Below, in pieces: positions 24,120-62,586 of a DNA stretch of 64,000 bases (positions are counted from its first letter, which is position 1; each line of letters opens with the position of its first letter). The notes below the pieces were generated by a model. It had not been told where the DNA came from. It ran no database searches and worked only from the letters and a program-made list of their open reading frames with translations. The stretch lies in assembly GCF_900176565.1 (NCBI RefSeq), contig NZ_FXEH01000004.1, positions 248,001-312,000 on the forward strand, given 5' to 3'. Made by a program: the position numbers and the translations under genes. This DNA comes from Thalassobacillus devorans. Its GTDB lineage: Bacteria > Bacillota > Bacilli > Bacillales > Halobacillaceae.

Positions 24120-24614
24120 TTAGGGATGGATGTATACGCCTGTTCCGATAGGGATCGTGCGAGCCAGTTCTTCGACATCCTTGTTATACATTCGGATACA
24201 GCCACGAGAGACTGCTTTTCCAATGGAGCTTGGATCGTTGGTGCCATGGATGCCATAATGTTGTTTTGACAGGCTCATCCACATGGTACCGAATGGTCCT
24301 CCCGGATTTGGGGCTTTATTGATGACTACATAATTTCCGATAGGAGTACCATGAAGTATCCTGCCTACCGCGATCGGATATTGTTTTTGCAAAACACCAT
24401 TCCTTAGTAAGCGAAGTGTTCGGTTATTGAGTGAAATATCAATGCTATAAGGAATGGATGCCGGGTTAGGTAAGCCTGGGATATTAATCGCTTGACCGGG
24501 GTAGATGAGGTCAGGATTGATTGTTGGGTTAACCTGAATGATTTGAGCCAATGGCTTCCGGTAATCACGGGAAATCTGTGTCAGCGTTTCACCTGGTTTG
24601 ACAGTATGGATCAT
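24120..24614 (-). CDS. ykuD: LysM and L,D-transpeptidase YkuD
   Basis: 164 residues, the same length as B. subtilis YkuD. Residues 2-46 form one LysM repeat ([25 protein letters not shown]) that holds the cell wall; residues about 55-163 are the catalytic domain with H123 in HYGIHGTND and C139 in SRGCIRMYN. There is no signal peptide, as in the B. subtilis protein. It forms alternative peptidoglycan cross-links and is associated with spores in B. subtilis. The start has GGAGGTGG on the minus strand. Confidence 0.92.
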
Positions 24615-24697: not shown

Positions 24698-24849
24698 GAG
24701 ACAATTTATTAATATACGAGACAATCTATATCCTTTGAGAGGAAAAAGAGGAAGTAAGAGAGACAATATTAAAATTATATGAGACACTTTCGAGAATAAG
24801 AGAGACAAATTTTAAAAAAAGAGAGAATTAGCAGCTGGATAGGAGACAA
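24698..24849 (+). repeat. GAGACAA heptamer array, about 21-bp period
   Basis: Heptamers start at 24698, 24718, 24737 (GAGAGGA), 24760, 24781 (GAGACAC), 24802, 24821 (GAGAGAA) and 24843: eight positions with steps of 20, 19, 23, 21, 21, 19 and 22 bases. The spacers are AT-rich and differ from each other. A related array on the opposite strand lies at 62435-62586. Read in one frame the unit gives a degenerate heptad of the type NKRDKF interrupted by stops, so it is not a gene now. Confidence 0.8.
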
Positions 24850-24893: not shown

Positions 24894-25082
24894 ATGAACA
24901 ATGTATGGAATACCATTTATATGATTATATTAGGCGTGGTGGCTGTTTTCACAGGAGAAATCGTAACTTTTATTATGCTCGGGTTTGTACTGGTCACGTT
25001 GAATAACATACATACTACGCTGAAAAACATTTATAAAGTGACAGCGGATCCAGAAGCTCGTAAATATTGGGAGGTGGATTGA
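24894..25082 (+). CDS. small membrane protein, 62 residues
   Basis: ATG 24894 with AGGGGGAG upstream. Two hydrophobic stretches, TIYMIILGVVAVFTGEIV and IVTFIMLGFVLVTLNNI, are likely to cross the membrane, followed by a short charged tail. It stands just downstream of the heptamer array and 57 bases before the sigma-54 activator gene. I do not recognise the family. Size, binding site and hydrophobic pattern make it a probable gene. Confidence 0.65.
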   Translation: MNNVWNTIYMIILGVVAVFTGEIVTFIMLGFVLVTLNNIHTTLKNIYKVTADPEARKYWEVD

Positions 25083-25139: not shown

Positions 25140-26504
25140 ATGCTTGATATATTAGAAGATTACCGGGATGGAATATTAGAGACGATTTTCGGTAATGTCA
25201 ATCATAGTATTGTCGTCGTGGATCGCAATGGTTTTGTTTCTTATATGAATGATAGTTATTGTGATTTTCTCGAAGTAGATAAAGAGGGTGTCCGCGGGAA
25301 GCATGTAACCGATGTGATAGAGAATACCAGGATGCATATCGTTGCGGAAACAGGAAAAGAAGAACTTGCGGACCTGCAGTATATCCGCGGTAATTATATG
25401 ATCGCCCATCGGATTCCGCTCCGTGCAGATGGAGAAGTGGTCGGTGCGCTCGGTATGGTGCTGTTCCGGGATACGGAGGAATGGCTGAAGCTGAACAGTC
25501 ATATCAAAGATTTGTTCCTGGAGCTGGAAACGTACCGGAATCAGATGAAAAAATTGAACGGAGTTTCCTATTCGCTGCATGATATCATCAGCAATTCTTC
25601 CGAGATGCACATATTAAAAGATAAAATTAAAAAAGTGGCTCCAGGAGATGTGTCTGTGCTGCTGCGTGGGGAGAGCGGGACAGGAAAAGAGTTGTTTGCG
25701 CACAGTATCCATCACTTGAGTGAACGCAACACCAAACCATTCGTCAAGGTGAACTGTGCGGCCATTCCAGCTGACCTTCTCGAATCAGAGCTGTTCGGCT
25801 ACCAGGAAGGTGCTTTTACTGGTGCCAAGAAAGGCGGCAAGCCAGGAAAGTTCCAGATGGCAGACGGCGGAACACTTTTCCTCGATGAAATTGGGGATAT
25901 GCCTCTTCAGGCCCAGGTGAAAATTCTTCGCGTCCTGCAGGAAGGAGAAGTCGAAGCAATCGGATCGGTTCATCCACAGAAAGTTGATGTACGGATTATT
26001 GCTGCGACCAACCAGCCCCTCGAGGAGTTAATAGCACAACAGAAGTTCCGGGAAGATTTATTTTACCGGATAAATGTTGTCCAGATTGATATTCCCCCAC
26101 TTCGGAAACGACCGGAGGACCTCCGGGTGCTGGCAAAATATTTGCTGGAAAAGGTGACCGAGCGGATAGGCAAACGGGTCGTCGATTTTGAACCGGAGGT
26201 GTATGAATGCTTCCTTGAGTATCACTGGCCAGGTAATGTCCGCGAGCTGGAAAACGTGATCGAAGCAGCTGTTCACCTGACGAGCAATGAAATGATTGAA
26301 CTGGATGATCTGCCGGATCACATTAAGCCGGACGCACTGTTAGTGGATGAGGATCGAAGCTTGAAGGCGATCATGGAAACGGCAGAGCGCCAGGCGATTG
26401 AACGGACATTGAAAAAAGTCCACGGAGACAAAGGGAAAGCGGCTACAATGCTTGGAATAGGAAAATCAAGCCTGTATGATAAAGCAAAAAAATATAATCT
26501 ATAA
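25140..26504 (+). CDS. sigma-54-dependent activator with PAS sensor
   Basis: 454 residues. A PAS domain at about 10-115 (GNVNHSIVVVDRNGFVSYMNDSY) senses a signal. The AAA+ domain at about 150-385 has Walker A GESGTGKE at 177-184, the sigma-54-contact loop GAFTGA at 224-229 and Walker B GGTLFLDE at 243-250. A Fis-type helix-turn-helix occupies about 415-454 (DKGKAATMLGIGKSSLYDKAKK). It needs no phosphorylation domain. A -24/-12 promoter lies 185 bases downstream, so it almost surely activates the 3-hydroxybutyrate operon that follows. AGGAG precedes the start. Confidence 0.92.
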   Translation: MLDILEDYRDGILETIFGNVNHSIVVVDRNGFVSYMNDSYCDFLEVDKEGVRGKHVTDVIENTRMHIVAETGKEELADLQYIRGNYMIAHRIPLRADGEVVGALGMVLFRDTEEWLKLNSHIKDLFLELETYRNQMKKLNGVSYSLHDIISNSSEMHILKDKIKKVAPGDVSVLLRGESGTGKELFAHSIHHLSERNTKPFVKVNCAAIPADLLESELFGYQEGAFTGAKKGGKPGKFQMADGGTLFLDEIGDMPLQAQVKILRVLQEGEVEAIGSVHPQKVDVRIIAATNQPLEELIAQQKFREDLFYRINVVQIDIPPLRKRPEDLRVLAKYLLEKVTERIGKRVVDFEPEVYECFLEYHWPGNVRELENVIEAAVHLTSNEMIELDDLPDHIKPDALLVDEDRSLKAIMETAERQAIERTLKKVHGDKGKAATMLGIGKSSLYDKAKKYNL

Positions 26505-62434: not shown

Positions 62435-62586
62435 TTGTCTCATAACAAGACTTCCATTCTCTCTTTTTTTTAAAACTGTCTCTCTTTCGGAAAAATTTGT
62501 CTCTCTTATTTTCAAACATGTCTAATATAATTGGTGCGGTTTCACTCATATAACATGACATGTCTCCATTACCATGGTTTTGTCTC
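62435..62586 (-). repeat. GAGACAA heptamer array on the minus strand, about 21-bp period
   Basis: On the plus strand TTGTCTC or near variants begin at 62435, 62457 (TTCTCTC), 62476 (CTGTCTC), 62497, 62518 (ATGTCTA), about 62540 (TTCACTC), 62560 (ATGTCTC) and 62580, with steps of about 19-22 bases. It is the same pattern as at 24698-24849 in the other direction; a 15-base core (ataagagagacaaat on the minus strand) is shared with 24796-24810. Confidence 0.8.

Follow-up and report, generated by a model that had tools for sequence, protein, structure and literature searches.

Two articles describe REP elements and BIMEs as many-copy intergenic sequences that are frequent between convergent genes and are targeted by specific insertion sequences, and they discuss gyrase binding and the relief of supercoiling at REPs (PMC3733652, PMC1525189). 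The element reported here, termed the octad, is likewise many-copy and intergenic, prefers the gaps between convergent genes (19/34 arrays in its own genome with both neighbours called, against 10/78 gaps that lack an array and measure 180 bp or more; p = 8e-6) and contains insertion sequences. However, REPs are palindromes of 20–40 bp, whereas octads are arrays of direct heptamers of about 152 bp without conserved pairing. The hairpins that define REPs are missing from octads, as RNAalifold returned 0 conserved pairs for units 4–8 of 24 aligned copies, and inverted repeats numbered 0 in both octads of the window, i.e., the whole stretch of 64,000 nucleotides of Thalassobacillus devorans DNA that was analysed.

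Plasmid iterons and ParR-type centromeres consist of direct repeats spaced at about two helix turns, to which proteins bind head-to-tail along a single DNA face. Octads likewise have direct repeats at about this distance; however, they are chromosomal and dispersed in dozens of copies, and no rep or par family was found by Pfam among the neighbours tested (4 genes around octad 1 and 20 of the 38 ORFs of the densest cluster). Furthermore, two octads are without similar plasmid DNA and one without similar phage DNA by blastn, which gave zero matches for octad 1 against plasmids and for one T-class octad (see below) against plasmids and phages. Lrp/AsnC-type wrapping sites, such as those of LrpC, are curved and dyad-symmetric, with phased contacts over about 150 bp; octads resemble them in length, phasing and predicted curvature, but all octad units are direct repeats. 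The DNA uptake sequences of Neisseriaceae are single short sites whose motif occurs in species dialects, a property that octad heptamers share, although in phased arrays. In CRISPR arrays, unique spacers separate identical repeats of about 23–40 bp, and cas genes accompany them, whereas octads have imperfect 7-bp repeats, spacers of 12–15 bp and ordinary neighbour genes, so that the original prediction, made from the letters of this locus, was right to set CRISPR aside. It was equally right about simple tandem repeats, since unit and spacer are not alike from one step to the next and TRF at score 30 reported nothing at 24698-24849. MITEs differ by their terminal inverted repeats, which octads do not have (best match of the end 12-mers in 32 G-class octads, mean 7.28 and maximum 9, against 7.30 after shuffling). 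A description of an octad-type element was not found in searches of the open-access literature; the element is apparently undescribed.

The window holds two octads, and the first lies among the following features.

24698..24849, plus strand: octad 1, the finding, with eight units at 24698, 24718, 24739, 24760, 24781, 24802, 24821 and 24843
24120..24614, minus strand: LysM and YkuD L,D-transpeptidase gene, left neighbour of octad 1
24894..25082, plus strand: 62-aa ORF, right neighbour of octad 1
25140..26504, plus strand: regulator gene with PAS, sigma-54 activator and Fis-type HTH, second gene to the right of octad 1
62435..62586, minus strand: octad 2, with the step series 20-21-21-21-21-19-22, as in octad 1

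In the best chain, octad 1 follows the same series, with 145 bp between the first and the last unit start. The start codon of the LysM/YkuD gene is 83 bp away, and the 62-aa ORF, for which Pfam gave zero matches, begins 44 bp past the array. Eight heptamers had been predicted, and this number stands, with five exact copies of GAGACAA (24698, 24718, 24760, 24802 and 24843); the third, placed at 24737, fits the register better at 24739, where the unit reads GAGGAAA. Rfam gave no match to octad 1. Octad 2, which was matched by a sequence model at G000:C2:310435-310528 (G000 being the own genome), is extended by a weak ninth unit to about 62415. The heptamer occurs 16 times in the window against a mean of 8.4 in shuffles, 2/100 of which reach 16; thus, by itself the heptamer carries little signal, and it is the spacing that carries a strong one. 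Octad 1 represents a DNA element, probably non-coding, that is dispersed over the chromosome; the array is one of dozens of intergenic copies, usually with eight motifs two helix turns apart, in salt-loving bacilli. The original observation is real, and it was understated, as the dispersed family and its further copy within this very window had been overlooked.

Exact GAGACAA pairs separated by gaps of 1–31 bp number 13 in the 4.07-Mb own genome, 11 at a step of 21 and 2 at a step of 20, while a reversed-pattern control gave 1. The probability that all 13 pairs would take 2 of the 31 possible steps is about 3e-16 for independent pairs, which overlapping pairs within one array are not. A scan for chains scoring at least 45 found 36 chains, corresponding to 35 arrays, across own-genome stretches that total about 561 kb and of which many had been picked for containing matches; two of the chains are the halves of a single array interrupted by an insertion sequence. 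One dinucleotide shuffle of each stretch yielded 0 such chains, and chance was rejected as an explanation on these shuffles and the 13/13 pairs. The 40 evenly spaced 8-kb stretches included in the scan contain 3 chains. Together with the second octad in the window, these dozens of copies place the array at many other loci of the genome, and the predicted phasing of all units on one face of the DNA is supported genome-wide, by steps of 20–21 bp.

The own-genome chains comprise two heptamer classes, G (25) and T (11). Exactly eight units are present in 23 chains, nine in 6 and fewer in 7; all 23 eight-unit chains span 143–145 bp, and their commonest step series is 20-21-21-21-21-21-20 (9/23), which is repeated by own-genome loci fetched later through model and pattern matches. 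Since the step cost of the scan favours 21, and unit counts vary with the score threshold, the unbiased evidence for the spacing is the exact-pair count. A mixed set of 36 chains was drawn from the own genome, the related genome G004 and one locus of the congener G001; it includes orthologues from up to three genomes and is thus not independent. In the 32 of these chains with at least eight units, trimmed to eight, step 1 is 20 in 32/32, step 3 is 21 in 30/32, step 4 is 21 in 32/32 and step 5 is 21 in 31/32. Steps 6 and 7 offset one another (r = -0.6), the total length is 144–146 in 27/32, and this length is less variable than independent steps permit (permutation p = 0.004). Unit 7 often departs from the consensus, reading GAGAGAA in 9/32 G-class octads (24821 in the window is an example) and TACTAGAAGA in many arrays of G428, a genome of a second family; the units are thus not equivalent, and the array has polarity.

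A sequence-only model of units 4–8, which often splits a single array over two matches, gave 51 matches in the own genome, 56 in G004, 10 in G001, 8 in the congener G002 and 0 in G003; among the 44 genomes of the family that include these five, two others have one weak match each, and the remainder none. Exact GAGACAA pairs at steps of 20–21, counted in 101 genomes, number 13 in the own genome, 39 in G004, 1 in G001 and 0–2 elsewhere (control 0–3). A looser pattern of three AGACA at steps of 19–21 matched 45/397 genomes of the order, and most of the matches listed resemble coding or perfect tandem repeats by eye. Through this pattern, arrays of octad kind were recognised in the second family (f2), where 6/22 genomes matched: G300, G156, G427 and G428 hold arrays of octad kind, G397 has a short, simpler array, and the match in G044 looks like chance. 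Among the matches listed from a contig scan, the inspected loci judged by eye to be of octad kind belong only to T. devorans and Virgibacillus halodenitrificans. Several GAGACAAC repeats, some of them 21 bp apart, were seen in viral contigs (L252:2034-2340, L266, L272 and L273), adjoined by a large primase/helicase-like gene that was named by eye in L252 and L266; these are probably replication iterons, separate from octads. Other matches of the viral scan are coding or tandem repeats and were set apart from octads.

The T-class heptamer is TACTAGACAA, and many arrays of this class occur in G001 and G002 and also in f2. Exact CTAGACA pairs number 12 in G000, 28 in G001, 19 in G002, 0 in G003, 3 in G004, 9 in G156, 8 in G300 and 0 in three further f2 genomes (control 0–1). 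T-class arrays keep the geometry, with the series 20-21-21-21-21-21-20 in G300 and in four G428 loci, and exactly eight units are present in 12/25 arrays of a first set and 6/19 of an f2 set, three loci being common to both. One orthologous locus carries a G-class octad in G000 and G004 and a T-class octad of eight units in G002, and no recognisable array in the stretches shown of G001 and G003. Beside a class-III aminotransferase gene, the arrays belong to the G class in G000, G004 and G002, and three T-class units are present in G001. The heptamer class thus differs between species while the geometry is constant; both dialects are also present together in one genome, so co-evolution with a single protein is conjectural. 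In V. halodenitrificans JCM 12304, GAGACA pairs number 35 against 3 in the control, and 14 stretches (L432-L445) contain 16 chains of 6–22 units, of which the one with 22 consists of two adjoining arrays. Their steps are mostly 21 or alternate between 20 and 21, and their spacers are GC-mixed. These arrays are longer relatives of the octads. The general features are thus the phasing and the AGACA/AGAGA core, and not the eight units or the A-tract spacers. Two array types stand side by side in L432 of this species.

Homologous loci were also compared in relatives, and octads are kept at orthologous positions with indels suppressed. In eight orthologous G000/G004 pairs (L176, one of nine candidates, was dropped for a flank score just below the limit), heptamers are identical at 413/448 positions, spacers at 664/761 and flanks at 1600/1829, so that heptamers differ from spacers (p = 0.0075) and spacers do not differ from flanks (p = 0.90). 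Gap openings number 2 in the arrays against 38 in the flanks (p of about 1e-6). The length of the array is thus held while the letters of its spacers drift like the adjoining DNA, which fits a constraint on double-stranded geometry, and octads are inherited vertically between close species. Against dinucleotide shuffles, the mean z of predicted curvature is 5.5 in the G class (32 arrays), 5.5 in the T class (18) and 15 in f2 (13) when predicted with a wedge table; a model of AA/TT alone gives 2.9, 5.8 and 8.8, respectively. When only the spacers are shuffled, the excess is clear in the T class (2.8, 3.5) and f2 (5.9, 5.45) and weak in the G class (1.3 and, with AA/TT alone, 0.68).

Gene contexts, which depend on a simple ORF picker, were called for both neighbours of 34 own-genome arrays: 19 are convergent, 8 co-directional in sense, 6 co-directional in antisense and 1, octad 1 itself, divergent; two further arrays are undecided. 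The own genome thus shows no preference for sense over antisense. Of the 36 arrays in the mixed set, 22 have a convergent, 11 a co-directional and 3 a divergent context. T-class arrays (25; +- 13, ++ 8, -- 3, -+ 1) and f2 arrays (19; +- 6, ++ 11, -- 0, -+ 1, undecided 1) lean to sense, and those of V. halodenitrificans (16; -- 8, +- 4, ++ 1, undecided 3) lean to antisense. The neighbour genes tested have no evident common function, 6/24 genes tested by Pfam have no match whatever, and no candidate binding protein was found by Pfam in 20 of the 38 ORFs of the densest cluster. In the own genome, where dnaA is located at C1:1205997 and the skew changes sign somewhere from C4:1.15 to 1.27 Mb, model matches are dense in C2 and C4:0.12-1.0 Mb. 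They are absent from C4:1.0-1.867 Mb and C1:0-0.46 Mb, an asymmetry between the replichores. About 36 kb at G000 C4:701-737 kb (L420, L421) contain six arrays, of which two are interrupted by an insertion sequence. This cluster is near the class-III aminotransferase (hemL-like) gene, and the G001 and G002 contigs of the corresponding gene also have several arrays.

The insertion sequence is of the IS3 family, and six copies were found in the own-genome stretches examined, most of which had been picked for array matches.

L420:10034-11485, L421:12342-13793, L446, L447, L448 and L456, own genome: IS3-family copies

Each of the six sits inside a G-class array, immediately behind a heptamer-like unit, and shares the orientation of the array. 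Neither the window nor any of the 40 evenly spaced stretches matched this element at E 1e-20; one stretch, L324, ends within the first bases of a copy. The probability that chance would place six insertions in about 0.17% of the genome is about 1e-10, even when 40 total copies are assumed, with 45 octads assumed for the 0.17%. At three of the six places, the orthologous octads of G004 (L158, L153 and L174) are uninterrupted, as judged from the printed flanks. The IS3-family element apparently targets octads, like the insertion sequences that target REPs.

We assign a probability of roughly 0.6 to the reading in which octads are a dispersed element on which a putative protein assembles head-to-tail along one face of the helix. 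A cooperative protein-binding array was already among the original proposals and is still the leading idea for this putative assembly, given the spacing, the constraint between orthologues and the predicted curvature; a single partition site, which was proposed beside it, is unlikely for an element with dozens of unevenly spread copies. Judged from sequence, the array is probably the docking site of a candidate DNA-binding protein complex. A sequence-specific protein would bind each heptamer in like orientation on the same DNA face, and the bound proteins would join head-to-tail into a complex of fixed size, with eight sites over about 152 bp, which may bend or wrap the DNA. More speculatively, the complex could separate transcription units from one another as a boundary of architectural or topological kind, a role discussed for gyrase at REPs.

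Other origins and roles can be weighed against this one. It is unlikely that octads are a selfish, non-autonomous dispersed repeat without host function, whose heptamers are bound by an octad-copying enzyme of transposase-like or recombination type. Of the 40 best alignments, 30 join non-orthologous pairs, and in 22 of these, the similarity is confined to within 20 bp of the octad (e.g., -6 to +13 in L169/L171 and -3 to +1 in L170/L178), as mobility of the octad would predict; however, shared motifs alone would confine alignments in the same way, so that this confinement is weak evidence, and 8 pairs extend further, with about 135 bp of left flank in common in L152/L166, as segmental duplication would produce. 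In G004, the closest paralogue pair has a spacer identity of 0.65, against a mean maximum of 0.57 and a largest value of 0.64 in 300 column shuffles, while the values of G000 (0.61 against a largest null of 0.61) and f2 (0.70 against 0.73) are not above the null. Some non-orthologous copies are thus in part akin, and some probably arose by duplication of the octad, at least once with flanking DNA. The patchy distribution and local clusters would also suit a selfish repeat, but terminal inverted repeats are absent, both from the 32 G-class octads and from those of the window, an autonomous partner was not found, and octads are retained at orthologous loci with few indels. Still less probable is an array of operators through which a transcription regulator controls adjoining promoters: octad 1 does lie between divergent genes, but convergent contexts prevail in the own genome and only this one is divergent, and a shared function of the neighbours is not evident.

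A role at the RNA level, in which an RNA-binding oligomer would recognise octads in 3' untranslated regions, is quite improbable, though not to the degree of the operators. TRAP, which binds repeated NAG triplets, provides a formal parallel; heptamers begin with GAG or TAG, and in T-class genomes the array frequently lies behind a gene and in sense to it. However, the 24 aligned copies lack conserved pairs, and terminator-like hairpins on the array's own strand stand before the array in 32/72 cases and after it in 17/72, so that many arrays may be little transcribed. The own genome has no sense bias, V. halodenitrificans leans to antisense, and a spacing precision of about 1 base over 145 bases suits double-stranded DNA better. 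Very improbable is the descent of the arrays, by decay, from a gene for a heptad-repeat protein, an origin that the original prediction had allowed for when it mentioned KRDKF-type heptads. Steps of exactly 21 do encode KRDKF or FTRQ heptads, and the frame is present wherever such steps occur, but steps of 19, 20 and 22, which recur at fixed unit positions, break it. In the mixed set, 29/36 arrays overlap no ORF of at least 90 aa, and the copies lie between unrelated genes. With shuffled spacers as the expectation, a plus frame is open through the whole array in 6/32 G-class (expected 1.9), 3/18 T-class (2.4) and 2/13 f2 arrays (1.1), and a minus frame in 14 (9.9), 1 (1.5) and 2 (0.9), respectively; the G-class excess is the sole result that leans to coding, and the T-class sets are not clearly above expectation.

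The reading of octads as sites of protein assembly can be taken further, to chromosome-wide nucleoprotein sites of fixed size, in which one protein on eight same-face heptamers and curved DNA would build a uniform particle, about 150 bp in length, where transcription units end, its specificity drifting between species and its geometry constant across two families; we propose this extension only tentatively, as somewhat short of an even chance. Against the assembly reading itself stand the curvature of the G class, which is weak with AA/TT alone and shuffled spacers, the 6–22 units and GC-mixed spacers of V. halodenitrificans, and the T-class arrays with a unit number other than eight, so that curvature and the eight-fold number both have exceptions. 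The excess of open plus frames in the G class and the position of octad 1 between divergent rather than convergent genes also count against it. Likewise, the sense leaning of the T class and the antisense leaning of V. halodenitrificans are not predicted by a purely DNA-level role.

Mostly eight-fold, helically phased arrays of direct repeats, dispersed on a bacterial chromosome, match no repeat class tested. On a conservative reading, octads are a new type of interspersed extragenic repeat, which still matters for annotation, as arrays with exact 21-bp steps may be annotated as spurious heptad ORFs. If a protein does assemble on octads, they would provide dozens of natural, uniform sites for studying how bacteria shape intergenic DNA, and would show cleanly how a motif drifts while its geometry stays constant.
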